From a bacterium (lineage in GTDB: Bacteria > Hydrothermota > UBA3073 > JACQXS01): 54,477 bases of DNA. This document shows positions 6,340 to 53,530 of the stretch, piece after piece. Each line of letters opens with the position of its first letter. The first letter of the stretch is position 1. The stretch covers positions 1 through 54,477 of the forward strand of contig JAUWHX010000008.1 of NCBI GenBank assembly GCA_030605695.1. The letters run 5' to 3'. A program made the position numbers and the translations under genes. Below the pieces are notes generated by a model. It was not told the DNA's origin. It did not search any database and worked only from the letters and a program-made list of their open reading frames with translations.

Positions 6340-9300
6340 TTGACATTATTTACTTTAATCGTTAAATCAGATATAAGAATACAAGAAAAATTCTTGCCAA
6401 CTCCTATGTATAAGATAACACCTTTTCTATCCAGTCGTGTCCAGAAATTGCCCGGCAAAGAGGTTGAAAAAGCATCTGGAGCACTTCTCTTGTCAGATAT
6501 ATCTGGTTTCACAGCTTTAAGTGAGACATTAGCAAAGGAAGGCAAAGAAGGGATTGAAGAATTGACCCACATATTAAATAATTACTTTGATGCAATGTTA
6601 AAAATAATTCAAAAACATGGTGGAGATGTTCTCAAATTCAGTGGTGATGCACTTCTGGTTGGTTTCTATCATTGTCATTCCGAAAGTATAGTAAGAACTT
6701 GTGCTAAAGAGATGATGGCATCGCTCAAAAATTTCAAAGGGATAAAAACGAGAGCTGGTAAGTTTGACATATCAATGAAAGTAGTAAGCAAGAATGGGCA
6801 ATGGAACGAACTGATTCTTGGTGACAATAGAAGAAGAGAGCTTTTCTTATGTGGTGGAACTGTAAAAGAGATATTACTAATAGAAGAACAGGCAAGCAAA
6901 GGAGATATTATAATCAAATGGTCAGAAACAGATAGAGACAGAGATAGAGAACAGAAGAAGCCAAAAAGAATTTCAAAACATAGATTGGTATCTTTTCTCC
7001 CACAAGGTGTATCAGATTTTGTTGATAGAGAGTTTTTCGGTGAGCACCGTGCAGTAAGCACAGTATTCCTGAATTTTGATGGTTATGACGAGGAAAACCC
7101 GTCCGCCAAACTACTTCAGGCAGTGTTTGGAGAAGTAATCTCTATTACAGAGAAGTATGGAGGAGTGATACATGACCTGGATATTCATTCTCAAGGAAGC
7201 AATATAATGATACCTTTTGGCGCTCCAGTATCTCACGAGAATGATGCAGAAAGAGCTGTACTTGCCTCAATAGAGCTGTCAAAACTTGATATTAAGCCCT
7301 TGAGAGTAAAAGTGGGTGTTTGTACGGGATTTGTATATACTGGAATAATCGGCTCAGACTGGAGAAAAGAATATGCTGTGATAGGAGATACAGTGAATAC
7401 AGCAGAAAGACTGATGGAGACCGCAGACTATGGTGAGGCAATAATATCAGACTCCACATATTATTTAACCAGCGATAAAATAGAATACCGTCAACTGAAA
7501 AGTGTAGAAGTGAAAGGAAAAGAGAAAGAACTAAAAAGATTTATACCCATCAAAGGAAAAGAAGAAAAGTTCTTTAGATTTGAATTCGTTGGAAGGGAAA
7601 AAGAGCTTGGAGATATACTCAAAGCAATAGAAACGGGTGGAAAAGTGATTATCCTAAAAGGCATAGCTGGACTCGGCAAGTCAAGATTACTATATGAAAT
7701 TAAAAAGAAGTTAGACCCTACTCATAAAATACTGGAGGGCTACACAAATGATTTCAAGAAATCTTTGCATCTATTTGCTTCAATGATTGCAAGAGAGGCA
7801 AACATTTATCCCGATGACCCGCAGGAAACACAAAAGAAAAAATTAGAGCAACATATTATAGGAACTACAAAGTTAGGAAGTGCACAATTAGAGCAACATA
7901 TCAAAGGATTAGAGATTAGAAAATTAGATAAGAAAGTGAAAGCTGAAGAAGAGATAGGAGATGGAGAATTGTATCAAAGGATTTCAGTTCTTAGTGCAAT
8001 GCTTTTTGGTATAAGGTATCCAGATTCTTTATACGAACGACTTGACTCAAAACTCAGGTTTGAAAATTTATGCGACGCATTAAGATATTATATAGAATAT
8101 CAAACGACAAGAAAAGACAAAGAACAGCTAACCAAGGTAGTGATTATATTTGATGACTTTCAATGGACGACAAAAGACGACCTTAAGATTATAGAATATA
8201 TTACGAGAATATTGCTTACCCTTTCAAAAAACAGAAAACAAATAACCTTCATCTTTGCCACACGACCAGAACCAAATATGATAGACAAATTATCCTTTGC
8301 TAAAGGAATAGAGAGTCTGAAATTGGAACTTTCACAGTTGAAAGTGGAATCAACAAGTCTATTGACAGGGCAAATACTTAATAACAAACCCCTCCCTGAA
8401 AAAATAGCCAAAATTATATCAGACAGAGCTGGTGGTAATCCTCTCTACTTGGAGCAATTCCTGATGGACTTGATAGAGAAAGGTTTGATAAAAGAAAAAA
8501 AAGATAGATGGGTAAAGACAATTAAGTTCAAAGGAGAAGAAATACCTGAAAATGTGTTTTCTGCAATAATGTCTCGTACAGACAGATTGAGTGCAAAAGC
8601 AAAGGAGGCACTCTATGTAGGAAGTGTTATAGGCATTGAGTTTACGGGGAAAGTAGTAGAAATAGCACTCAATGAACCGGATGCCTCCCGCTATTTAGTG
8701 GACACAGAGAAAAAACGTTTAACATATAGAAAAGTCTTAAAGGAAGGAGAATACATCTTCAGACATACAATGATACGAGAGGTGATATATGATTCCATAC
8801 TACGCTCACGCCGTAAAGTATTGCATAAGTCTGTAGGAGAAGCAATAGAAAGTCTTTACAAAAAAGGATTAGAAAGATTTTATGGAATACTTGCGTATCA
8901 TTTCAACCAGGCAGGAGAATGGAAGAAAGCACTTGCTTATAACCTGAAGGCTGGAGAGAAAGCAAAGAAGAAGTATCGTAATGAAGATGCGATTCAATAT
9001 TTTTCAGGAGCAGCAGAAATTGTGGAAGAGAAATTACCACAAAATAAGGAAAAGTTGTATGATGCATACAAAGGGTTGGGTGATGTATATAGCTCTATTT
9101 CCTCTTATTCGATGGCAAGAGGTTATTATCAAAATGCAGTTATATCAATAGGAACGGTTGATAAACAAAAGCTTGTAGATGTTTTAAATGGGATTGCCGA
9201 TACTTATTACAGGCAAGGCGACTATAAGGAGACGTTGAGAACGGGGGACGAGGCTTACAACATCTCTTGTAAGATAAAATACAAAAAGGGTATTGCTATA

Positions 9301-10824
9301 AACCTTAACAGGATAGGTAATGTTCATTGGAATCAAAGTCGGTATGAAGAAGCACTGAAGTGCTATAAAGAATCTCTGGAGATTGCAAGAGAATCTAGGG
9401 ATAAAAGAGGCATTGCTGGAAGCTTGGGCAACATAGGTATTGTTCGTCGGGCTCAAGGTCGGTATGAGGAAGCACTCTCGCATTATGAAGAATCTATGAG
9501 GATATTCAAAGAGATTGGAGATAAATCAGACATCTCTGGAAGTCTTAATCGCACAGGTAATGTTCATTGGGTTCAAGGTCGGTATGAGGAAGCACTCTTA
9601 CATTACGAAGACTCTCTGAAGATTAACAGGGAGATTGGGGATAAATCAGGTATCTCTGCAAACCTTAACAACATAGGTAATGTTCATTGGAACCAAGATC
9701 GGTATGAAGAAGCACTTTTGTATTACAAAGAATCTCTGGAGATTAGAAGAGAAATTGGGGATAAAAGTGGCATCGCTACAAGTCTTAACAATATAGGCGC
9801 TGTTCATGAGAGTCAAAGTCAGTATGAGGAAGCACTCTCGCATTATAAAGAAGCTCTGAAGATTGGAAGAGAGATTGGGAATAAAAGTAGCATTGCTACG
9901 ACTCTTAACAACATAGGTGTTATTCATGAGACTCAAGGTCGGTATGAGGAAGCACTCCCGAATTTTGAAGAATCTCTGAAGATTGAAAGGGAAATTGGGG
10001 ATAAAAGTGGCATCGCTCTGAGTCTTAACAACATAGGCGTTGTTCATGAGACTCAAGGTCGGTATGAGGAAGCACTCCCGAATTTTGAAGAATCTCTGAA
10101 GATTAGAAGAGAAACTGGGAACAAACTTGGTATCGCTCAAAGTCTGGGTGCTCTGGGAAATGTCTATATTTCGCTTGGCTTATTCAAGAACGGAATCAAG
10201 AATGCAAAAAAGGCTCAAAGGATTTTTGAGGAGATTGGCGCAAAAAGTGAGCTGCTCGGTATTTTTGCAATGCTGATTTACGGCTATGCAGAGCTAAGCA
10301 AGGAACACAGGGAATCCTATGCCACCAGGGACAAAGAAACCATTGAAAAGGCAGATGAAATAGAGAAAGAGATACCAGAAAGTAAAACCATGGTCTCCTT
10401 CAAGCTATCTATATCAAGATTTTATGAAAGAGAAGCTATTAAGCTATCGGGCGAGCAAGCTATCAAGAAAATAAAAAACGCCGTCAAATATGCGGAGGAG
10501 GCTTTGGAAAAGGCAAAAGAGCTAAAGCAATTGAGTAATCAGGCAAAGTCCTATCTTCGGCTATGTGAACTACTGGGGACAAGAAGCAAGAAACAAGAAG
10601 CAAGAAAAAGAGAATATGTGGAATCGGCTTTATCTATAGCTGAGAAGACTAAATCCCTCCCATTACTCTGGAAATCGCATTACTGGATGTATAAAGCTAC
10701 AGGAAACAAAAGTCATCTAAAAAAAGCGGAGAAATGCTTAAAAGAGCAGTTCAAACACATCCCGACGAAGTATTTAAATGATTTCAAACAGTGGGTCAAA
10801 AGGTACACAGGAGAAAAACTATAG
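6340..10824 (+). CDS. Giant signalling protein: two class III cyclase-like domains, AAA/STAND-type ATPase, C-terminal TPR array (start possibly 6403)
   Basis: LLLSDISGFTALSETLAKEG...HGGDVLKFSGDALLVGF; second cyclase domain STVFLNFDGY...VCTGFVYTGIIGSDWRKEYAVIGDTVNTAERL; Walker A GIAGLGKS; more than 8 TPR units of 40 aa. Confidence 0.92.
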   Translation: MTLFTLIVKSDIRIQEKFLPTPMYKITPFLSSRVQKLPGKEVEKASGALLLSDISGFTALSETLAKEGKEGIEELTHILNNYFDAMLKIIQKHGGDVLKFSGDALLVGFYHCHSESIVRTCAKEMMASLKNFKGIKTRAGKFDISMKVVSKNGQWNELILGDNRRRELFLCGGTVKEILLIEEQASKGDIIIKWSETDRDRDREQKKPKRISKHRLVSFLPQGVSDFVDREFFGEHRAVSTVFLNFDGYDEENPSAKLLQAVFGEVISITEKYGGVIHDLDIHSQGSNIMIPFGAPVSHENDAERAVLASIELSKLDIKPLRVKVGVCTGFVYTGIIGSDWRKEYAVIGDTVNTAERLMETADYGEAIISDSTYYLTSDKIEYRQLKSVEVKGKEKELKRFIPIKGKEEKFFRFEFVGREKELGDILKAIETGGKVIILKGIAGLGKSRLLYEIKKKLDPTHKILEGYTNDFKKSLHLFASMIAREANIYPDDPQETQKKKLEQHIIGTTKLGSAQLEQHIKGLEIRKLDKKVKAEEEIGDGELYQRISVLSAMLFGIRYPDSLYERLDSKLRFENLCDALRYYIEYQTTRKDKEQLTKVVIIFDDFQWTTKDDLKIIEYITRILLTLSKNRKQITFIFATRPEPNMIDKLSFAKGIESLKLELSQLKVESTSLLTGQILNNKPLPEKIAKIISDRAGGNPLYLEQFLMDLIEKGLIKEKKDRWVKTIKFKGEEIPENVFSAIMSRTDRLSAKAKEALYVGSVIGIEFTGKVVEIALNEPDASRYLVDTEKKRLTYRKVLKEGEYIFRHTMIREVIYDSILRSRRKVLHKSVGEAIESLYKKGLERFYGILAYHFNQAGEWKKALAYNLKAGEKAKKKYRNEDAIQYFSGAAEIVEEKLPQNKEKLYDAYKGLGDVYSSISSYSMARGYYQNAVISIGTVDKQKLVDVLNGIADTYYRQGDYKETLRTGDEAYNISCKIKYKKGIAINLNRIGNVHWNQSRYEEALKCYKESLEIARESRDKRGIAGSLGNIGIVRRAQGRYEEALSHYEESMRIFKEIGDKSDISGSLNRTGNVHWVQGRYEEALLHYEDSLKINREIGDKSGISANLNNIGNVHWNQDRYEEALLYYKESLEIRREIGDKSGIATSLNNIGAVHESQSQYEEALSHYKEALKIGREIGNKSSIATTLNNIGVIHETQGRYEEALPNFEESLKIEREIGDKSGIALSLNNIGVVHETQGRYEEALPNFEESLKIRRETGNKLGIAQSLGALGNVYISLGLFKNGIKNAKKAQRIFEEIGAKSELLGIFAMLIYGYAELSKEHRESYATRDKETIEKADEIEKEIPESKTMVSFKLSISRFYEREAIKLSGEQAIKKIKNAVKYAEEALEKAKELKQLSNQAKSYLRLCELLGTRSKKQEARKREYVESALSIAEKTKSLPLLWKSHYWMYKATGNKSHLKKAEKCLKEQFKHIPTKYLNDFKQWVKRYTGEKL
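9310..10150 (+). repeat. 120-bp tandem repeats encoding 40-aa TPR units
   Basis: Recurring ataggtaatgttcattgg.tcaaggtcggtatgaggaagcactc... every 120 bp; last two units nearly identical. Confidence 0.9.
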
Positions 10825-13318: not shown

Positions 13319-14839
13319 TTATCTCATCAAAATCAGTTTCTTTGTCTCTTTAAAATCTCCTGTCGTCAGACCCGTATGGGCTACAAGCTTCGCAAAATAT
13401 ATGCCAGCTGTCAAGTCTTTTGCATCAAAACTAACATCATAACATCCAGCTTTCCTTTCTTCATTTACTAATGTCTTAACTATCCTTCCAGTTATATCAT
13501 GAATCGTTAACCGTAAATCGTTAATCGTGTAATCGTTACGATTTCCGTTTAACGAATAACGAATAACGGTTTTCTGAGTAAATGGATTCGGAAAAACTCT
13601 AAACTCTAAACTCTTAACTTTTAACTCTTTACTCTCCTCCACACTTGTTCCTTCACATTTATGACGCTTGTAATATATCTCCGGTCTGCCAGCACGCTCA
13701 TCTGTCCAAGTTACATGAACATCATAATCATAAGAACAATCCCAACATGCTACCGAAGGATAATATGAGGAAGCAAGGGCATTAGTTAACCTCTCATCTA
13801 TTATCCCCCAAGTCTCACCATCATTAACTGACCGATTGTAATATATCTCCGTATTGCCAGCACCAGCACGCCAATCTCTCCAAACTATATGGACTATTGA
13901 ATCATGAACTGCTACTGAAGGATACTTTGAGCCATCAGGGTCAGTAGTTAACCTCTCCTCTATCCCCCAGGTCTTACCATTATCAACTGACCGCTTGTAA
14001 TATATCTCCCAGCTGCCAGCACACTCATCATGCCAAACTACATGAACTATTGAATCACGAACTGCTACCGAAGGACACTCTGAGTCAGCAGAGTTATTAG
14101 TCAGTCTCTCATTTATTATCCCCCAATTCTCACCATTATTAACTGACCGCTTGTAATATATCTCATAGTTGCCAGCAGCACACAAATTATACCAAACCAC
14201 ATGAACTATTGAACCATGGACTGCTATTGAAGGATGTCCTGAGTAGTAAAAAGAGTCATTAGTCAGTCTCTTATCTATTCCCCAAGTCTTACCATTATCA
14301 ACTGACCGCTTGTAATATATCTCCGGGTTGCTATTACGAGAATCACACCAAACTATATGGACTATTGAATCACGAACTGCTACCGAAGGATACCATGAGC
14401 CAGCAGGGTCATGAGTTAATCTCTCATCGTCTCCCCAGGTCGCACCATTATCAACTGACCGCTTGTAATATATCTTATAGTTGCCAGCACGCAAATCACA
14501 CCAAACTATATGGACTATTGAATCACAAACTGCTACCGAAGGATAATGAGAATTCCCTGTAGTTAGCCGTGTATCTGGGTCAAAGCTACTGCCAGAATTG
14601 ATAGACCTTATGTAATAAAGCTCACCGGGATTAACACCACTACTCAATCTGTGTTCCCATACAATATGCACCATAGTATCCCGCACAGCTATTGTCCAGG
14701 CATTATTGAAGCTACCATAGTCAGAATAGCTTGGATAAGCAGTTAATCTTTTTTCTGGATTCTCCCACTGTCCATACAAATCCATAGGATTCTGTGAACT
14801 GCAAGCTGCCAACACCATCAAAAATCCCCATCTCTTCAT
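13319..14839 (-). CDS. Secreted BNR/sialidase-like repeat protein with lipobox-like N-terminus and T9SS-type C-terminal sorting domain
   Basis: MKRWGFLMVLAAC; repeats SVAVRDSIVHVVWxDxRAGxxEIYYKRSVDNGxTWG; C-term VFPNPFTQKTVIRYSL...YDVSFDAKDLTAGIYFAKLV...KKLILMR. Confidence 0.85.
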   Translation of the reverse strand: MKRWGFLMVLAACSSQNPMDLYGQWENPEKRLTAYPSYSDYGSFNNAWTIAVRDTMVHIVWEHRLSSGVNPGELYYIRSINSGSSFDPDTRLTTGNSHYPSVAVCDSIVHIVWCDLRAGNYKIYYKRSVDNGATWGDDERLTHDPAGSWYPSVAVRDSIVHIVWCDSRNSNPEIYYKRSVDNGKTWGIDKRLTNDSFYYSGHPSIAVHGSIVHVVWYNLCAAGNYEIYYKRSVNNGENWGIINERLTNNSADSECPSVAVRDSIVHVVWHDECAGSWEIYYKRSVDNGKTWGIEERLTTDPDGSKYPSVAVHDSIVHIVWRDWRAGAGNTEIYYNRSVNDGETWGIIDERLTNALASSYYPSVACWDCSYDYDVHVTWTDERAGRPEIYYKRHKCEGTSVEESKELKVKSLEFRVFPNPFTQKTVIRYSLNGNRNDYTINDLRLTIHDITGRIVKTLVNEERKAGCYDVSFDAKDLTAGIYFAKLVAHTGLTTGDFKETKKLILMR

Positions 14840-14961: not shown

Positions 14962-17019
14962 TTACTTCATCAAAATCAGCTTCTTGGTTTCTTTGTAATC
15001 ATCTACCACAAGCTTCGCAAAATAGATGCCGGTTGTCAATCCTTTTGTGTCAAAGCTGACATTATAACTTCCAGCTTTCTTTTCTTCGCTTGCTAATGTT
15101 TTAACTATCCTTCCAGTTATATCGTAAATCTTTAATGAAATCTCGCTTTTGACTGGCAACTGATATTTGATAATTGCAGAGCCGACGACAGGATTCGGAT
15201 ATACTTTTAACTTTACACCTTTAACTTTCAACTTTTCACTTTCTTCTATTCCTGCACACGAATACTTTATCGTCACATAGTCATAACCAGTGCCTGAACC
15301 ATAACTCCATCCTGTCACATAAACATTGCCAGTTCCATCAAGTGCAATTGCATTTGCTACACTGTTATATTTTTCTATCCATTGTTTATCGCCAGAGTTA
15401 TTATACTTGATAGTACCACTATTTCCTGTTACATATACATTGCCTGCTCCATCCACTGCAATATCAGTTGCTTTATCAGAGCCATTGGATAGTCCGTTAT
15501 ATCTTCTAACCCACAGCGTATCACCGGAAGAATTATACTTGATAGTTGCATAGTCCTCAGAAGTACCTAATCCCATACTCCATCCCGTTACATACACATT
15601 ACCGTTTCCATCTACTACAATTTTCTTTGCCCAATCACCGCCATCACTTGGCCCGTTATATCTTGCTACCCACTGCTCTACACCTAAAGAATCATATTTC
15701 ACTGTTGCATAATCAAAGCTGGTGTCTGAATTATAACTACATCCTGTCACATATACATTTCCACTATCGTCAACTGCAATTGCATATGCCCAATCATCAC
15801 GGTACGGTCCATTATACTTTGCTACCCACTGTCTCTCACCCAAAGTATTATACTTTATCGTAATATAGGCAGCATTCGCAACCACACCCCACCCTGTTAC
15901 ATAAATATTGCCCGCATTATCAACTGTAATTGCATATGCATACTCAACGTCGTCCGGTTTGCCATATCTTGTCACCCATTGCTCCCTTCCTGAAGGATTA
16001 TATTTCACTGTCGCATAATCCTCAAAAGTCCAGTTATATCCCCAACTATATCCTGTCACATATACATTTCCACTACTGTCAATTGCAATTGCATATGCTA
16101 TGTCTTCTTTGTTGTCCGACCGATTGGTATATCTTGCTATCCACTGTTCTTCACCCAAAGTATTATACTTTACTGTCGCATAGTCCTCACCAGTGACTGA
16201 ATCCATGCTCGTTCCCGTCACACAGATATTGCCGTCTTTATCAACTGCAATTCCAGATGCATAATCATTGCCATTGTCTGGTCCGTTATATCTCCTAACC
16301 CACAGCGAGTCACCCGAAGAATTATACTTAATTGTCGCATAGTCATAAGAAGTGCCTGAACCTACGCTATATCCTGTCACATAAACATTACTACTATCAT
16401 CAACTGCAATTGCAGTTGTCCAATCAGTGCTATTGTCCGGCCCGTCATATCTTGCTACCCACACTGAGTCACCCAAGGAATTATACTTAATTGTTACATA
16501 ATCCTGCTTCGTGCCTGAACTTTCACTATATCCTGTCACATAGACATAGCCACTATCTATTGCAATTGCAGTTGCATAATCAGTGCCATTGTCTGGTCCG
16601 TCATATCTTGCTACCCACACTGAGTCACCCAAGGAATTATACTTAATTGTCGCACAGTCAGAATGAGTGCCTGAACCATAACTTCCTCCTGTCACATATA
16701 CATTGCCAGAATCATCAAGTGTAATTGCACTTGCAGCATCCCAACCATTGCCCGGTCCGTTATATCTTCTGACCCATAGTGTATCACCTGAAGAATTATA
16801 CTTGATTGTCGCATAGTCATTAGAAGTGCCTGAACCATAACTCCCTCCCGTAACATATACATTACCAGAACTATCAATTGCAATTGCAGATGCTTTATCA
16901 TAGTCATTGCCTGGTCCGTTATATCTTGCTACCCATAGCTCTGATGCAGAAGCAAGCTTCTGCACTCCAAAATCCGTGGACAGCACAAACATCATTATCA
17001 GAACAAATACTTTCTTCAT
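14962..17019 (-). CDS. Secreted SBBP-like beta-propeller repeat protein with T9SS-type C-terminal sorting domain
   Basis: Repeats AIAIDSSGNVYVTGGSYGSGTSNDYATIKYNSSGDTLWVRRYNGPGN; C-term VYPNPVVGSAIIKYQL...GIYFAKLVVDDYKETKKLILMK. Confidence 0.88.
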   Translation of the reverse strand: MKKVFVLIMMFVLSTDFGVQKLASASELWVARYNGPGNDYDKASAIAIDSSGNVYVTGGSYGSGTSNDYATIKYNSSGDTLWVRRYNGPGNGWDAASAITLDDSGNVYVTGGSYGSGTHSDCATIKYNSLGDSVWVARYDGPDNGTDYATAIAIDSGYVYVTGYSESSGTKQDYVTIKYNSLGDSVWVARYDGPDNSTDWTTAIAVDDSSNVYVTGYSVGSGTSYDYATIKYNSSGDSLWVRRYNGPDNGNDYASGIAVDKDGNICVTGTSMDSVTGEDYATVKYNTLGEEQWIARYTNRSDNKEDIAYAIAIDSSGNVYVTGYSWGYNWTFEDYATVKYNPSGREQWVTRYGKPDDVEYAYAITVDNAGNIYVTGWGVVANAAYITIKYNTLGERQWVAKYNGPYRDDWAYAIAVDDSGNVYVTGCSYNSDTSFDYATVKYDSLGVEQWVARYNGPSDGGDWAKKIVVDGNGNVYVTGWSMGLGTSEDYATIKYNSSGDTLWVRRYNGLSNGSDKATDIAVDGAGNVYVTGNSGTIKYNNSGDKQWIEKYNSVANAIALDGTGNVYVTGWSYGSGTGYDYVTIKYSCAGIEESEKLKVKGVKLKVYPNPVVGSAIIKYQLPVKSEISLKIYDITGRIVKTLASEEKKAGSYNVSFDTKGLTTGIYFAKLVVDDYKETKKLILMK

Positions 17020-24693: not shown

Positions 24694-25518
24694 ATGCATG
24701 AACCTGTGTTGGTTGAAGAGCTCCTTTTTTGGCTTAATATTAAAGAGAATGGTATTTATGTTGACTGTACTTTAGGGAGTGGGGGGCATACGAAAGCAAT
24801 TTTCGAAAAAGCCAAGAAAGTAAAGATTTATGGAATTGACAGAGATTTAGAGGCAATATCCAGATTAAAAATTAAAAGTAAAAAGTTAAAAGTTCTACGA
24901 GCGAACTTTAGAGCCCTATCAAATATTATAGAAGAGAAGGTTGATGGAATATTATTTGACATTGGAATCTCAAGCGAGCAACTTGATTCGCCGGAGAGAG
25001 GATTCAGTTATAGATTTGATAGTCCTCTTGACCTTCGTATGGACCAGAGTCGTGGAGTTCCCTGCTTTGAGTTGCTTGAGAAATTCAATCAGGATGATTT
25101 AGAGTTTATTTTAAAAAATTATGGAGAGGAGAGACGAAGCAAAAAGATTGCTGCAGAAATAATAAAAAATAAGCCAAAAACAACGGGAGAACTTGTAGAA
25201 ATTATCCGTCGGATAACTCCTTATAAAGGAAGGTCAAGGGTTTTAGCTCGCGTATTTCAGGCTTTAAGGATATTTGTAAATGATGAGCTTGAGTGTCTTC
25301 GTGAAGGATTATGCGAGGCAACCAAAATTCTTAAAAAAGGCGGAAGAGTATGTGTAATTTCTTATCATTCTCTTGAAGACCGTATTGTAAAGAGATATTT
25401 CAAAGAGGAGCCCGCCTTGATTGTTTTGACAAAGAAGCCCGTTCGGCCAAGAGAGAGTGAAGTAAGCAGGAATCCAAGGTCAAGGAGTGCGAAACTCAGA
25501 TGTGCTGAAAAACAGTAA
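24694..25518 (+). CDS. rsmH: 16S rRNA (cytosine1402-N4)-methyltransferase
   Basis: MHEPVLVEELLFWL, YVDCTLGSGGHTKAI, DGILFDIGISSEQLDSPERGFSYRFDSPLDLRMD. Confidence 0.97.
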   Translation: MHEPVLVEELLFWLNIKENGIYVDCTLGSGGHTKAIFEKAKKVKIYGIDRDLEAISRLKIKSKKLKVLRANFRALSNIIEEKVDGILFDIGISSEQLDSPERGFSYRFDSPLDLRMDQSRGVPCFELLEKFNQDDLEFILKNYGEERRSKKIAAEIIKNKPKTTGELVEIIRRITPYKGRSRVLARVFQALRIFVNDELECLREGLCEATKILKKGGRVCVISYHSLEDRIVKRYFKEEPALIVLTKKPVRPRESEVSRNPRSRSAKLRCAEKQ

Positions 25519-25778: not shown

Positions 25779-27299
25779 ATGGATAAGAAAGTATCTCTTG
25801 GAAGACTAACCTTAATTATAGGACTTGCCATTGTATTCGAGCTTTCTATTATTGCGAGACTCATTAATCTCCAGTTTTTCCGTCGCAGTGGGTTCCAGAT
25901 TCGTGTCAAGGAACAATCGGAAACAAAAGTTAAAGTAACGGCTAAGAGGGGTAGAATTTATGATAGATACCGTAGAATCCTTGCTACCTCTATCAGCAAG
26001 CAGTCCACAGGATTCTGCGAAAGGGTATATCCACTCGAAGAGGTTGCAGGAAATTTGCTTGGGTTCGTAGGAAAAGATAATATAGGATTAGAAGGAGTAG
26101 AGTATGAATTTGACCCTCTCCTTTCTGGAAAACCGGGATGGATGACTCTGGGCAAGACCCCACGAGGGCATCTTTACCCTTACCCGGGTTATCCTCGCAC
26201 CCGCGTGAAACCCGCAAAAGACATTGTTTTAACAATAGATGCTGACATTCAAGCTATTATTGAGGCAGCTTTAATGAAAAGAATTAATGAGGTGCAAGCA
26301 AAAAAGGGAAGCGCTGTAGTTATTGACCCAAGAACTGGTGAGATATTAGCTATGGCAACAGTCCCTTCTTATAATCCTAATCACTGGAAAAGAGAAGCTT
26401 GCCGAAGAAATGTTCCTCTCCAGGACCAATTTGAACCAGGCAGTACTTTTAAAATTGTACCCTTATCTATTATTGTAGAGGAAAGTCTTGTAGGTCTTGA
26501 GGACACAGTTGAAGATGGGACTGCAAAAATAACAATAAGTGGCAAGACAATCAGAGATGTTAAGCCACATGGTCCATTCACATTTGCTCAAGCTGTTTGG
26601 AAGTCAAGCAATGTAGCGTTTGTTAAACTCACAAACTTAATTGGCAAACACAGATTTTATTCTGCTGCAAGAGCTTTTGGCTTTGGAATTCCAACCGGAG
26701 TATCTCTTCCAGGAGAAGCGAGCGGAAGTTTATCTCTTCCATCAGGCTGGAGTAATCTGAGATTTGCAAACCTTGCTTTTGGTCAGGGAGTGAGTTGTAG
26801 TTTGCTTCAGCTCGCCTTTGCATATCAGGCAATTGCAAATGATGGAGTGCTCTTAAAACCAATAATAATTAAAGAGGTCATTTCAGAAAAAGGAAAAGTG
26901 CTTTATGAAGAGAAACCTATGAAAGTTCGAGAAGTTTTACCTCCGGAAAAAGCAAAAGAGGTTACAGAACTTTTATGTGGAGTAGTAGAAAATGGAAGTG
27001 GAATGCTTGCGCGGATTAAAGGGCTGAAGATGGCAGGAAAAACTGGAACTGCAAATAAGTGTGTTAGTGGAAGGTATGTTTCATCTTATATGTCAAGTTT
27101 TGTATGTTTTTTCCCAGCAGATAACCCCATATTTCTTGTTGCTACTGTAATTGATGAGCCAAAATATGTATATCTTGGTGGTGAGGTTGGCGGTCCTCTA
27201 ATGCACGAGATAGCAAGAAAAATCACTCGGATAAGGGAATATAGAGTTATTGACTGCCAACCACCGACCGTGGATAGTGGAGTTGAAGATGAAGCTTAA
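25779..27299 (+). CDS. ftsI: Class B penicillin-binding protein (FtsI/SpoVD family)
   Basis: RGRIYDRYRRILATS, FEPGSTFKIVPL, SSN (KSSNVAFVKL), KTGTAN. Confidence 0.95.
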   Translation: MDKKVSLGRLTLIIGLAIVFELSIIARLINLQFFRRSGFQIRVKEQSETKVKVTAKRGRIYDRYRRILATSISKQSTGFCERVYPLEEVAGNLLGFVGKDNIGLEGVEYEFDPLLSGKPGWMTLGKTPRGHLYPYPGYPRTRVKPAKDIVLTIDADIQAIIEAALMKRINEVQAKKGSAVVIDPRTGEILAMATVPSYNPNHWKREACRRNVPLQDQFEPGSTFKIVPLSIIVEESLVGLEDTVEDGTAKITISGKTIRDVKPHGPFTFAQAVWKSSNVAFVKLTNLIGKHRFYSAARAFGFGIPTGVSLPGEASGSLSLPSGWSNLRFANLAFGQGVSCSLLQLAFAYQAIANDGVLLKPIIIKEVISEKGKVLYEEKPMKVREVLPPEKAKEVTELLCGVVENGSGMLARIKGLKMAGKTGTANKCVSGRYVSSYMSSFVCFFPADNPIFLVATVIDEPKYVYLGGEVGGPLMHEIARKITRIREYRVIDCQPPTVDSGVEDEA

Positions 27300-28848
27300 A
27301 GAACTTATAAAAGAGTTAATCCGTCAACCGATGGAGAAAAGTGAAAAGTTAAAAGTTATAGAAAATATAGAAGTAAAAGGTATTAGTTATGATTCACGGC
27401 TCGTAAAACCGGGCTGGCTTTTTGTAGCTCTTAAAGGTGATAACTTTGATGGACATTCCTTTCTTGAACAGGCAAAACAAAAGGGTGCAATTGCTGCAAT
27501 CTGTAATCTGTCTACAGGATCCGATGGACAATCTGTAATCTCTAACCCCAGATTGCCAATTATAGCAGTAGAGGATAGTAGAACCATGCTTGCGGATTTA
27601 GCACAGAAATTTTATGGCAATCCATCTAATGATTTAAAAATAATAGGAGTAACAGGAACTTATGGAAAAACAACATCAACTTGGCTATTGAAATCAATAT
27701 ATGAGGCACAGGGTTTGCAAACTGGCTTAATCGGAACCATTAAATACGAGATAGGCGATAACTCTGTATCTGCTCATCATACGACTCCTGAATCCCTTGA
27801 TTTGCAAAGGATTTTTTATGAGCTAAGAGAACAAGGTATAAAAGTTTGTATTATGGAAGTCTCTTCACATGGACTCGCACTTGAGAGAGTTCGTGGAGTA
27901 GATTTTGACATCGCTGCTCTCACTGGCTTAGGCAGAGACCATCTTGATTTTCACCATACTCTTAAAGAGTATGAAAACACAAAACTCAAACTCTTTTCGG
28001 ATTTAAAACCCGATGCTCTTGCTGTATTAAATCAAGATGACCACACTTTTAACCGCTTCAAAAAATATACAAAGGCAAAAGTTATAAGTTATGGGACTTC
28101 TTCTCCACAGGTCGCAGACTCGTTTCAAGATTCTGCGAATAAGTGTAATGTGTGTGGTAAGCTTTGCTCTTCAACTCAAGAGGGAATTGAGGTTCTTATA
28201 CGATGGGATGGTAGGAAAGAAAAGATTTCTTCTAAGTTGGTGGGAGGGTACAACCTTTATAATGTTTTACTCGCAGCTACTTGTGCTTTAAAAGACGGAG
28301 CCAGTTTTGAGGTAATTCGTGAAGGAATAGAGAAGATGGAACAGGTCCCGGGAAGATTTGAACGAGTAGGTCGTGTAATAGTGGATTATGCACATACACC
28401 TGAGGCATTGAAATCTGCACTCAAGTCCACAAGAGAACTTGCTAAAGGAAGAATTATATGTGTATTCGGATGCGGGGGAGACAGAGACCAAGGGAAACGT
28501 CCTTTAATGGGGAAAATTGCTTCTGAACTCGCAGATTATGTGATTCTTACCACAGATAATCCAAGAAGTGAAGACCCTCTCCAGATTATAGAAGATATTA
28601 TACAAGGAGTTACTGTTGGAAATTATGAAATCGTTCTTGACCGTGAACAGGCAATCCGTACGGCAATTGAGAGGTCAAGTGAAGAGGACATTATTTTATT
28701 AGTGGGAAAGGGACACGAAAATTATCAGATTTACGGCGAGCTGAAAATTCCTTGGGACGATAGAGAAGTAGCAAGAGAAATTCAAAACAATTCACCACAG
28801 AGTCAGGGAGACGCGAAGGACACAAAGAATAAGGCACATGTTGTATAA
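27292..28848 (+). CDS. murE: UDP-MurNAc-tripeptide synthetase MurE
   Basis: ISYDSRLVKPGWLFVALKGDNFDGHSF, GVTGTYGKTTST, EVSSHGLALERV, DYAHTPEAL, TTDNPRSEDP. Confidence 0.96.
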   Translation, partial: KLKELIKELIRQPMEKSEKLKVIENIEVKGISYDSRLVKPGWLFVALKGDNFDGHSFLEQAKQKGAIAAICNLSTGSDGQSVISNPRLPIIAVEDSRTMLADLAQKFYGNPSNDLKIIGVTGTYGKTTSTWLLKSIYEAQGLQTGLIGTIKYEIGDNSVSAHHTTPESLDLQRIFYELREQGIKVCIMEVSSHGLALERVRGVDFDIAALTGLGRDHLDFHHTLKEYENTKLKLFSDLKPDALAVLNQDDHTFNRFKKYTKAKVISYGTSSPQVADSFQDSANKCNVCGKLCSSTQEGIEVLIRWDGRKEKISSKLVGGYNLYNVLLAATCALKDGASFEVIREGIEKMEQVPGRFERVGRVIVDYAHTPEALKSALKSTRELAKGRIICVFGCGGDRDQGKRPLMGKIASELADYVILTTDNPRSEDPLQIIEDIIQGVTVGNYEIVLDREQAIRTAIERSSEEDIILLVGKGHENYQIYGELKIPWDDREVAREIQNNSPQSQGDAKDTKNKAHVV

Positions 28849-33861: not shown

Positions 33862-34916
33862 AGATAATTATTGCAACTGGAGGCACAGGAGGACACATAT
33901 TTACAGGGCTTGCTATTGCTGAGGAATTGGATAATCTTGGAGTCAAGGTGCTAATCGTTGCTTCGAAATCCGCACTGCCGGATGCTATTATACAAAAACA
34001 ATATCCGCTCGAGATTACTTGCCAGCGTCCATTGCTTGGCAAAAACCTCAAACAGAAGCTTGCATTCCCTGTTTTCCTGGGGCTTTCATTATTTCAGTCT
34101 ATATATATAATAATGAGAGAAGCTCCAGATGGCGTAATCGGAACTGGTGGATTTGGCTCTTTCTCGCTTGTGTTTGTTGCTGCTTTCCTGCATATTCCCA
34201 CAATAATAACGGAAATCGATTCTGTCCCCGGACTTACTACAAAAATACTTTCAAGATTCGCTCACGAAATCTGGCTCGCTTTCCCTTCTGCCAAGAACAA
34301 ATTACCAGCTAAAAAAACAATCCTCGCTGGGGTCCCTGTTAGAAAGAAGATTACAAAACCTACTAAAACTATTAAGGATTTTGGACTATGTGATAACAAG
34401 CCTACTATATTTGTCTTCGGTGGCTCAAGAGGTGCGAGACATATAAATGAAGTCCTCGAGAAAGTTTTAGACCTCAAAATACTCCCAGATTTCCAATTTA
34501 TATGGCAAACCGGCGACTCACAACTCACAACTCGTAACTCAAAACTCCCAAATGTTTATATCACTAAATTTATTGATGATATAGAAAACGCTTATGCCAA
34601 TGCAGACCTCGTAGTCTCAAGAGCAGGTGCTTTAACCATTGGCGAGATTACAGCTATTGGTTTGCCCGCTATTTTCATTCCTTATCCTTATGCTACTGGG
34701 CAACACCAACTTTTAAATGCAAGAGCTTTGGAAAAAACGGGCGCTGCAAAAGTAATTTTAGATAAGGACTTAACCCCTGAACTCCTTGCAAAAGAAATAA
34801 AGAGGATAATCGAGGATAAAAAATTACAAACTAAGATGAAAACAGCTATGAAACAATTTAGTAACCCCGAAACAGCTAAACTAATAGCTAACAGAATGTT
34901 AGAACTATGCAACTAA
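33858..34916 (+). CDS. murG: UDP-GlcNAc transferase MurG
   Basis: IATGGTGGHIFTGLAIAEEL, VFGGSRGARHINE, VVSRAGALTIGEI, YPYATGQHQLLNARALEKTGAA. Confidence 0.97.
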   Translation: MKIIIATGGTGGHIFTGLAIAEELDNLGVKVLIVASKSALPDAIIQKQYPLEITCQRPLLGKNLKQKLAFPVFLGLSLFQSIYIIMREAPDGVIGTGGFGSFSLVFVAAFLHIPTIITEIDSVPGLTTKILSRFAHEIWLAFPSAKNKLPAKKTILAGVPVRKKITKPTKTIKDFGLCDNKPTIFVFGGSRGARHINEVLEKVLDLKILPDFQFIWQTGDSQLTTRNSKLPNVYITKFIDDIENAYANADLVVSRAGALTIGEITAIGLPAIFIPYPYATGQHQLLNARALEKTGAAKVILDKDLTPELLAKEIKRIIEDKKLQTKMKTAMKQFSNPETAKLIANRMLELCN

Positions 34917-36342: not shown

Positions 36343-37638
36343 ATGAAAAACCAAATTATTGCTGGCATTGATTTAGGAAGCTCTAAAATCGCTTGTATGA
36401 TTGCTAAAACAAGTGCCCCTCCACAGGATTCTGCGAATAATCCAGCCCCAGAAATCATTGGTGCAGGGATTTCAGAGCCTAAGGGTTTCTCCAATGGTTT
36501 GGTGGTCAATCTCGAACTTGCTGCTCAATCTATTAAAAATGCTACTTCTCTTGCTGAGACGCAAGCTGGTGTTAAACTATCAGAGTTATATATTGCTATT
36601 ACAGGTGCACACATTAAAGGTGAATCCTCAAAAGTTTCTCTCTCCATTTCACCTGACAAAGAGATTACGCCTGCTGATGTTTCTCAACTCGTTCAACAAG
36701 CTTCCACTGTTGACCTCCCATCTCACCGTACTATCATTCACTCGTTCCCCCAAGAATTTATTCTTGATGACCTCCACGGCATCCGCGACCCCATTGGTAT
36801 GAACGCTAACCGCCTACAGGCCTCTATTTACATTGTTACTGCTACTTCTACCGCCATACAAAATATCCAGAAAGCCATTAATAGAGCAGGATTTAAAGCA
36901 AGAGAGTTCCTCCCTCAGCCCATCGCCGCTTCTTACTCTGTCCTTGATTCCAATGACCAAGAACTCGGTTGCATGCTTATTGATATTGGCGGTGAAACTA
37001 CTGATGTTGCTGCCTTCTATAACGGTGGTATTTATGATACTCTTTCACTCGGTCTCGGCGGAGCTGATATTACTAATGATATTTCTATCGGACTTTCTAT
37101 ATCAAGATATCATGCCGAACAACTAAAAATCAAACACGGTGCTGCTCGCTCTGACCTTGCTTTCTCACTCTCATCTCCACAGGATTCTGCGAATAAACAC
37201 TCCTCTCCAATTAAGATTCAATCTCTCGGCAAAGACATTGAACAAACCATTGATAAAAAATCTCTCATTTCCATCATTGCTCCTCGCGTTGAGGAAATCT
37301 TTGGATTGCTTCACAGAAAACTGAAATATCCGACTGACTTAGAGCTCCTTCCTGCTGGTATCGTTCTTACCGGAGGTGCTGCTAAAATGCCTGGCATTTC
37401 AGGACTTGCCGAACGCATCTTTGGTATCCCTGCTAAAATTGGTATCCCTAATACTGTTCAATCGCTTAATCAATATAAAGACCCTTCTTTTGCCACACCT
37501 ATCGGCCTTATTATTTATGGCTCTATAGATAAATCCGCCTCAAACGGAAATAAAAGAAACGGAAGGATGGGAAAATCTTCAAAAGCACCTTTGCTCTCAT
37601 CTTTCTCTAATCGTGTGAAAAGCTGGCTATTAGAATAA
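36343..37638 (+). CDS. ftsA: Cell division protein FtsA
   Basis: IIAGIDLGSSKIACMI, LIDIGGETTDVAAF, GGADITNDISIGL, GIVLTGGAAKMPGI. Confidence 0.96.
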   Translation: MKNQIIAGIDLGSSKIACMIAKTSAPPQDSANNPAPEIIGAGISEPKGFSNGLVVNLELAAQSIKNATSLAETQAGVKLSELYIAITGAHIKGESSKVSLSISPDKEITPADVSQLVQQASTVDLPSHRTIIHSFPQEFILDDLHGIRDPIGMNANRLQASIYIVTATSTAIQNIQKAINRAGFKAREFLPQPIAASYSVLDSNDQELGCMLIDIGGETTDVAAFYNGGIYDTLSLGLGGADITNDISIGLSISRYHAEQLKIKHGAARSDLAFSLSSPQDSANKHSSPIKIQSLGKDIEQTIDKKSLISIIAPRVEEIFGLLHRKLKYPTDLELLPAGIVLTGGAAKMPGISGLAERIFGIPAKIGIPNTVQSLNQYKDPSFATPIGLIIYGSIDKSASNGNKRNGRMGKSSKAPLLSSFSNRVKSWLLE

Positions 37639-37802
37639 TTATGATTATGAAATCACAAGATTTTACAAGACTCAAAGATACAGGAGAAAGGGAGAATTGT
37701 GAGAAAAGGAGAAGAAATATTTAAATTTTTTCCCTTTCTTGCTTTCTCCATTCCTCCTATGTCTGTATTTAATCTGTGTTATTCTGTGTCTAAGAAACTA
37801 TT

Positions 37803-39098
37803 ATGAAAAACCTAAGATTCCAATTCTCAGACCAACAAGTTGCAAACTCTGTACAAGATTCTGCAGACACGAACCACGAACACGAACCACGAACACGAAC
37901 ACGAATTAAAACTATCGGTGTCGGTGGATGTGGCGGCAATGCTATTAATACTGTACTTAAAACTATAACTCCCAACTCCCAACTCTCAAACTCTTCAACT
38001 CCCCAACTTGTAACTCCCAACTCCTTTATTGCCATTAATACTGACCGTCAAGCACTTTCTATTTCCAACGCTCCTACCAAAGTTCAAATTGGTATCTCTA
38101 TCACAAAGGGCTTTGGCTCTGGTGGAGACCCGGAAATTGGCAAAAAAGCCATTGAGGAAAATATTGATGATGTTAAAACTGTTATTAAAAATACCGATGT
38201 CCTTTTCATTATCGCCGGTATGGGTGGAGGTACTGGAACAGGTGCTTCACCTACTATCGCCAAAATCTCAAAACAATCCGGAGCTTTTACTATTGCCATT
38301 GTTACTTTTCCCTTCGATTGTGAAGGTAACAAACGTGCCCTACAAGCTACTGCTGGTATATCTGAATTAAAAAAATACACTGATGCCCTCTTGTTACTCC
38401 ATAATCAAAAATTGCTTGTTATGACTTCCAAGGAGACCCCTCTTGTCAATGCTTTTGAACTCATAAATCAAACTATAGCCCAGACAGTTCAGGGATTAAC
38501 AGAGATTATTCTCTTGCCGGGGCTCGTTAATGTAGATTTCGCTGATATACGGACTCTTATGTCTCAAAAAGGAGATGCTTTCGTCGGAACTGGGTCCTCC
38601 AATTATAGTATCGGCTCCTCTTGTAATGTAGCTCAAGAACTTAATCCTGTTAACATCAATCCTAACCCCCAAACCCTAATCCCTAACCGTACTATTATTG
38701 CTTTACAACAAGCTATTAATTCTCCATTCCTCACGAAATCCTGTTTGCGAGGTGCATCGGGTATCCTTATTAACATATCCGCCGGCCAATCCCTTACTCT
38801 GTTTGAAGCAAAAAATGCTATTTCTACTGTCAGAGATATGGTTCACCACGATGCTAATATTATTTTCGGCATTCACATTAATCCCACACATAAAGTATGT
38901 ACAGAACAGGATGAAGTCAAAATTACTATAATTGCCACTGGAATAAAGCAAGATTATTGTAAACCATACAAATATTCAGAGCAAAATCTGAAAATCCCAG
39001 CATTCAAGAGGAAAAATTATGATTTCTTAGCCTTTAAAAAACACGAAAGTTCAGAGATTCTTACTTTCTCAAAACGTCAAAATGGGCTTAAATCCTAA
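37803..39098 (+). CDS. ftsZ: Cell division protein FtsZ
   Basis: IKTIGVGGCGGNAINTVL, FIAINTDRQAL, GMGGGTGTGASP, NVDFADIRTLM, C-terminal LKIPAFKRK. Confidence 0.96.
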   Translation: MKNLRFQFSDQQVANSVQDSADTNHEHEPRTRTRIKTIGVGGCGGNAINTVLKTITPNSQLSNSSTPQLVTPNSFIAINTDRQALSISNAPTKVQIGISITKGFGSGGDPEIGKKAIEENIDDVKTVIKNTDVLFIIAGMGGGTGTGASPTIAKISKQSGAFTIAIVTFPFDCEGNKRALQATAGISELKKYTDALLLLHNQKLLVMTSKETPLVNAFELINQTIAQTVQGLTEIILLPGLVNVDFADIRTLMSQKGDAFVGTGSSNYSIGSSCNVAQELNPVNINPNPQTLIPNRTIIALQQAINSPFLTKSCLRGASGILINISAGQSLTLFEAKNAISTVRDMVHHDANIIFGIHINPTHKVCTEQDEVKITIIATGIKQDYCKPYKYSEQNLKIPAFKRKNYDFLAFKKHESSEILTFSKRQNGLKS

Positions 39099-53275: not shown

Positions 53276-53530
53276 ATGAATGAGTTAGAGAGTTCTATGA
53301 GTGACTCGGTAACATTACCGAATGACTTGGTAGCATTACCGAACCGATGGGGAACACTGCCGAACGACTCGGTAGCATTGCCGAATGAATGGGTAAGATT
53401 ACCGAACGGATGGGGAACATTCCCGAACGAGTGGGGAACATTACCGAATGGATGGGGAAGAGTACCGAATGACTTGGGAACCTTCCCGAACGAATTGGGA
53501 ATATATGGAGTGCAACAAGTAAAAGACTGA
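53276..53530 (+). CDS. 84-aa heptad-repeat mini-ORF made of a 21-bp palindromic array
   Basis: MNELESSMSDSVTLPNDLVALPNRWGTLPNDSVALPNEWVRLPNGWGTFPNEWG...; no disruption by stops. Confidence 0.5.
   Translation: MNELESSMSDSVTLPNDLVALPNRWGTLPNDSVALPNEWVRLPNGWGTFPNEWGTLPNGWGRVPNDLGTFPNELGIYGVQQVKD
53307..53509. repeat. 21-bp tandem array, 9 units plus one degenerate, with GGTAA-NN-TTACC / GGGAA-NN-TTCCC palindromes
   Basis: Units start at 53307, 53328, 53349 ... 53475 with no indels; perfect cores GGTAACATTACC, GGTAAGATTACC, GGGAACATTCCC, GGGAACCTTCCC. Confidence 0.92.

Follow-up and report, generated by a model that had tools for sequence, protein, structure and literature searches.

FtsZ is one of the most conserved bacterial proteins. 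Repeats in frame within coding genes are known from Rickettsia, where defined palindromic elements occupy tolerant surface positions of the encoded proteins. The ftsZ gene described here lies on a 54,477-nucleotide (nt) contig, referred to as the window, of an uncultured bacterium that named relatives assign to candidate division WOR-3 (G000; assembly 1.98 Mb, 84% complete). It shares with the Rickettsia elements the in-frame placement of repeats at tolerant surface positions, a likeness drawn from the literature and not from sequence comparison, while its tracts differ in being tandem arrays. Our reading, to which we give a probability of roughly 0.7, is that this gene encodes a working, single-copy FtsZ of the division and cell wall (dcw) cluster, whose N-terminal tail, H1-S2 loop and S7-H9 loop were overtaken by short tandem-repeat DNA through tolerated slippage or template switching.

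Tandem repeats of Borgs form disordered protein regions (Schoelmerich et al. 2023, PMC9879509). The repeats of G000 resemble them in being genome-wide, in having largely unique units, in lying in many open reading frames (ORFs) and in encoding disordered, fast-evolving protein segments. They differ in their 7-nt unit, in their location mostly within ORFs, including those of core division enzymes, and in residing on a bacterial chromosome. The Borg rule that units in ORFs have a length divisible by three does not hold for the 7-nt units of G000. In prokaryotic heptanucleotide long simple sequence repeats, period 7 dominates, and slippage of a polymerase with a 7-nt contact length has been proposed (Mrazek et al. 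2007, as related in PMC4679880); period 7 is dominant in G000 too. The TAACTGA repeats of Beggiatoaceae have one fixed unit and are mostly intergenic, lying near protein ends when they occur in ORFs. In contrast, the units in G000 are diverse and most arrays are found inside ORFs. Our search of the open literature returned nothing on WOR-3 tandem repeats or WOR-3 FtsZ, nor on short tandemly repeated repetitive sequences in connection with heptanucleotides.

The gene is located directly 3' of ftsA, at the end of the dcw cluster. The GTPase signature GMGGGTGTG is present at residue 139, and the catalytic T7 loop (NxDxxD) reads NVDFAD at residues 243-248. Both the GTPase motifs and the predicted fold are canonical. 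A search of the whole assembly identified ftsZ as its only tubulin/FtsZ-family gene, and one FtsZ locus each is present in the sister species (G001, the WOR-3 metagenome-assembled genome (MAG) JAGMCN01) and in the 93%-complete genome G002. The extreme C-terminal peptide (window 39000-39095) appears eroded, reading EILTFSKRQNGLKS where relatives have LEIPTFLRRQ; upstream of it, LKIPAFKRK is still present.

Two of the three tracts are clear repeats, while the third is a real insert that contains only a weak 7-nt array in G000 (Table 1). At the N-terminus, the sequence-only reading of this DNA had described a diverged motif followed by a CACGAAC/CACGAA array, and both are borne out. The motif, CAAGATTCTGCAGA (37854-37867), is a diverged copy of the dispersed motif CAGGATTCTGCGAA, and the array (37867-37905) has a 13-nt (7+6) unit, ACACGAACCACGA, with 96% matches and a Tandem Repeats Finder (TRF) score of 71. 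Its lag-13 score of 21 has p = 0.0002 against the codon-shuffled gene. The ACTCCCA-type block reported after helix H1 was recovered as (AACTCCC)n, with 7.9 copies by TRF, a lag-7 p of 0.0004 and a lag-8 stretch at p = 0.003 by codon shuffling. The third segment is unambiguous as an insert of 25–28 residues; solved FtsZ sequences match the G000 protein in two stretches, broken at this point. The proposed heptamer block stands insofar as the insert is real and its site in the sister species is occupied by strong 8- and 7-nt arrays, but the degenerate CCCTAA(T) array in its 3' part (38661-38686) is weak alone. Its position also had to be revised: it was placed before T7 but lies in the S7-H9 loop, beyond both T7 and H8.

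The placement of the inserts was derived from an AlphaFold2 model of the G000 FtsZ, built from five sequences, with a predicted TM-score of 0.68. The order of its elements is canonical (H1 41-55, S2 74-79, S7 258-266, H9 296-305), and the predicted local distance difference test score falls below 50 at residues 1-31, 57-69 and 269-293. Because of this element order and the low-confidence segments, we assign the internal inserts to H1-S2 and S7-H9. They are modelled as low-confidence coil on an intact core, and the top Foldseek matches are all FtsZ, with a TM-score of 0.92 by target for the Bacillus subtilis protein. Helix H1 has the H1-S2 loop at one end and the T1 loop, which binds nucleotide, at the other. 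The earlier view of an expansion close to the nucleotide site is not upheld, as both inserts lie away from GTP and from the longitudinal interface. The tubulin counterpart of S7-H9 is the M-loop, and that of H1-S2 is the region of its lateral partner; both are loops of the lateral surface. The G000 protein has the long S7-H9 loop of a tubulin-type M-loop, and by this analogy a lateral-contact role of the FtsZ loops is possible.

Comparison with the sister species reveals turnover of the tracts. FtsZ is 92% identical between the two, and the core segments of ftsZ downstream of H1 show 96–97% DNA identity, while the M-loop segment (38585-38687) shows 48%. The M-loop of the sister species is made up of two arrays, one with 8-nt units resembling CCTTTGAA and one with 7-nt units resembling AACCGAT (p = 0.0002 for each), and its insert is similar in length but unrelated in sequence to that of G000. 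On direct reading, the in-frame TAA positions of its 8-nt array are GAG, GAA or CAG instead, as expected if stops were selected out. The H1-S2 region is 98% identical, and the sister species adds an exact, in-frame 30-bp duplication, so that copy-number variation among close relatives, suggested from sequence alone, is observed. Just 3' of the N-terminal array, positions 37900-37964 are only 85% identical, with the first ~35 bases unusually diverged.

We aligned 50 FtsZ sequences from the phylum. M-loop inserts of 14–25 residues beyond the alignment core are found only in this genus, in 3/3 genomes, and are absent from the 47 other sequences. Only G000 and its sister have long H1-S2 inserts (14 and 24 residues); those of two distant relatives measure 8. 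In G004 and G007 (L124, L125), which belong to the same order, FtsZ is enlarged in different loops, with inserts of 26 and 42 residues between H3 and S4 and one of 22 residues following residue 206.

Table 1 Coordinates of ftsZ, its tracts and related features in the window.
Feature	Position	Strand	Details
ftsZ, 431 aa	37803..39098	+	Pfam PF00091 5.5e-45, 154 bits; PF12327 1.8e-19
N-terminal tail tract	37836..37905	+	Diverged dispersed motif, then CACGAAC/CACGAA array; encodes ...QVANSVQDSADTNHEHEPRTRTR; TRF, codon-shuffle
H1-S2 loop array (AACTCCC)n	37967..38024	+	Residues ~56-74 (TPNSQLSNSSTPQLVTPNS); TRF
S7-H9 (M-loop) insert	38604..38684	+	Residues 268-294 (YSIGSSCNVAQELNPVNINPNPQTLIP); phylum alignment, sister-species DNA comparison
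ftsA-ftsZ intergenic region	37639..37802	+	Non-homologous in G001 (7/8-nt arrays there); only ~28 bp in G002
rsmH array TTAAAAG	24864..24894	+	Net length change 0
murE heptamer array	27336-27358		
murD array CCCTCAA	31465..31500	+	Loop replaced, net length -1 aa
murG array ACTCACA	34516..34551	+	
TCCACAGGATTCTGCGAA in PBP/FtsI-like gene	26004-26021		One copy
TCCACAGGATTCTGCGAA in FtsA	36420-36437, 37176-37193		Two copies
PQVADSFQDSAN in MurE	~28105-28141		Longer variant of TCCACAGGATTCTGCGAA; resembles FtsZ N-terminus (QVANSVQDSAD)

The repeats of FtsZ are not special in kind; they are an extreme example of a repeat process that runs across the genome. The expansion had been singled out as striking in so conserved a protein; it is real and unusual, but the same 7-nt arrays occur in MurD, MurG, RsmH, MurE and dozens more. 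Genome statistics cover 608 kb of G000, 439 kb of G001 and 269 kb of G002, with ORFs called by a simple longest-ORF rule instead of a gene finder. TRF reports 98 period-7 rows in the G000 sample against 0 in a Markov control, the excess over chance that marks heptanucleotide long simple sequence repeats, and most other periods are far fewer. An independent lag analysis, from which we subtracted a baseline that was the same at every lag and in the Markov control and probably reflects runs of N, places the main excess at 7, 14 and 21 and at 8, 16 and 24. We rejected the idea that the arrays merely reflect protein heptad repeats, because the DNA shows a 7-nt period and not just one of 21. No period-7 arrays are present in a 50-kb stretch of E. 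coli K-12. The array load of the sister species is like that of G000, G002 has few arrays, and samples from elsewhere in the order vary.

After merging, 141 arrays with periods in multiples of 7 remain (23 per 100 kb), 82% of them within called ORFs, as compared with 38% for multiples of 8. Period-7 arrays lie in called ORFs in 83/98 cases, and in ORFs of at least 300 residues in 74/98. Outside ORFs are 29/39 of the period-8 arrays, a bias that may be explained in part by the stop codons that many 8-mers contain on both strands. The units are diverse: 190 arrays comprise 86 distinct canonical heptamers, the commonest occurring 15 times, and no single unit dominates. The window also contains longer tandem repeats, at 9300-10145, 13748-14551, 16128-16935 and 53303-53501, with units of 120, 153-159/315 and 21/63 nt.

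The arrays of rsmH, murE, murD and murG are all located inside the dcw cluster that holds ftsZ. These genes and ftsI were named from sequence and gene order, Pfam having been run on FtsZ and FtsA. We compared 37 genic arrays with their orthologues in the array-poor G002. The net length change was -1, 0 or +1 residue in 19/37 comparisons, with a median array of 11 residues; these include neighbouring arrays of one protein and copies from both species, and some pairs are 25–45% identical and may be paralogues, so that independent cases are fewer. In MurD, RsmH and a 206-residue protein (L045), a loop has been replaced at essentially the same length, and in one protein loop (L067, 14339 region) the sister species have different heptamers at the same place. 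FtsZ lies at the long end of the distribution, with +9 in G000 and +19 in the sister species. The comparisons suggest that, besides duplication, a neighbouring heptamer can be copied length-neutrally, by slippage and return or by template switching.

Under our reading, repeated slippage or template switching of 7–8 nt during DNA synthesis would create the arrays, and the neighbouring heptamer would often be copied over existing sequence, leaving the length unchanged. Purifying selection would then retain an array only where it keeps the frame, contains no stop and falls in a disordered surface loop or tail. For FtsZ this would leave sites that neither GTP nor the longitudinal interface uses, hence the long, disordered and fast-turning loops. 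Array length differences between the sister species are multiples of three in 3/3 genic cases, and the single intergenic difference is not. Most likely, the loop sequences are tolerated and not selected for a specific sequence.

Several observations weigh against this reading. Slippage and template switching are inferred, and the frame test is based on very few events. The M-loop array of G000 reaches only p = 0.012 at lag 7 and is unreported by TRF; searches of G000, G001 and G002 found no source elsewhere for the non-repetitive 5' half of the insert. G002 has a 14-residue M-loop insert without arrays, so lengthening of the M-loop may be older than the repeats. Short arrays are numerous, and since orthologues sometimes carry similar peptides, some arrays may be homogenised and not new.

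A bolder form of the proposal, which we hold as tentative and rather doubtful, is that a separate mutational process, its step fixed at 7 nt, copies heptamers over coding sequence length-neutrally and so steadily rewrites the loops of core proteins, FtsZ among them. In this genus it would have equipped FtsZ with long lateral loops, H1-S2 and the M-loop, that are tubulin-like and specific to each species.

It is unlikely that mobile repeat elements, or arrays inserted as units as in the Rickettsia case, account for the tracts in place of growth in situ. DNA resembling the N-terminal tract recurs at ~25 places in G000 and ~10 in G001, with none in G002, and DNA like the FtsZ arrays is found at many loci. 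Exact copies of the 18-nt motif TCCACAGGATTCTGCGAA, which encodes PQDSAN, are spread patchily through the order: 20 in G000, 18 each in G001 and G006, 3 in G009 and 0 in G002. The FtsZ N-terminal copy is probably a diverged member of this repeat, as judged from the resemblance of the MurE variant to the FtsZ N-terminus. However, array units are extremely diverse and have no shared ends, about half of the genic arrays involve essentially no net insertion, and no arrays were found beside the TCCACAGGATTCTGCGAA copies. The lack of adjoining arrays also led us to reject seeding of arrays by TCCACAGGATTCTGCGAA; a control with random 53-mers for this flank test was unusable, probably owing to runs of N. 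As for a discrete element, the motif is a candidate, with copies in FtsA, in MurE and at the N-terminus of FtsZ; none is seen in the arrays.

We consider it quite unlikely that the loops are adaptive, with a long H1-S2 and M-loop tuning or creating tubulin-like lateral contacts between protofilaments and the repeats serving as raw material. Both internal inserts fall exactly on tubulin's lateral loops, and the M-loop insert has kept a similar length in the sister species. Long, flexible S7-H9 loops are also seen in other members of the tubulin superfamily, namely tubulins and archaeal CetZ1, where the M-loop has 14–26 residues, that of CetZ2 being short (PMC9856176). Mutations in the M-loop of BtubA abolish lateral assembly (PMC10058229). 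The protein described here differs in being a bona fide bacterial FtsZ with a repeat-derived loop. Against an adaptive origin, the insert sequence is not conserved between species whose FtsZ is 92% identical. The inserts are predicted to be disordered, loops of unrelated enzymes carry similar arrays, and G004 and G007 have their inserts in different loops.

An artefact of assembly or binning is highly improbable, as is a degenerate paralogue: the data come from MAGs and an 84%-complete genome leaves room for a second copy, but no second canonical ftsZ was found in it, a separate MAG has the same reading frame and H1-S2 array, and the gene has intact catalytic motifs, lies within the dcw cluster and is the single FtsZ locus in all three genomes searched.

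The polymerisation surfaces of FtsZ are difficult to probe via random insertion. This lineage constitutes a natural insertion experiment, marking which surfaces of FtsZ can accommodate long disordered peptides in the living cell; these surfaces coincide with the lateral-contact loops of tubulin. Repeat units that are not multiples of three, inside essential genes, contradict the Borg pattern and point to a testable 7-nt step in DNA synthesis.
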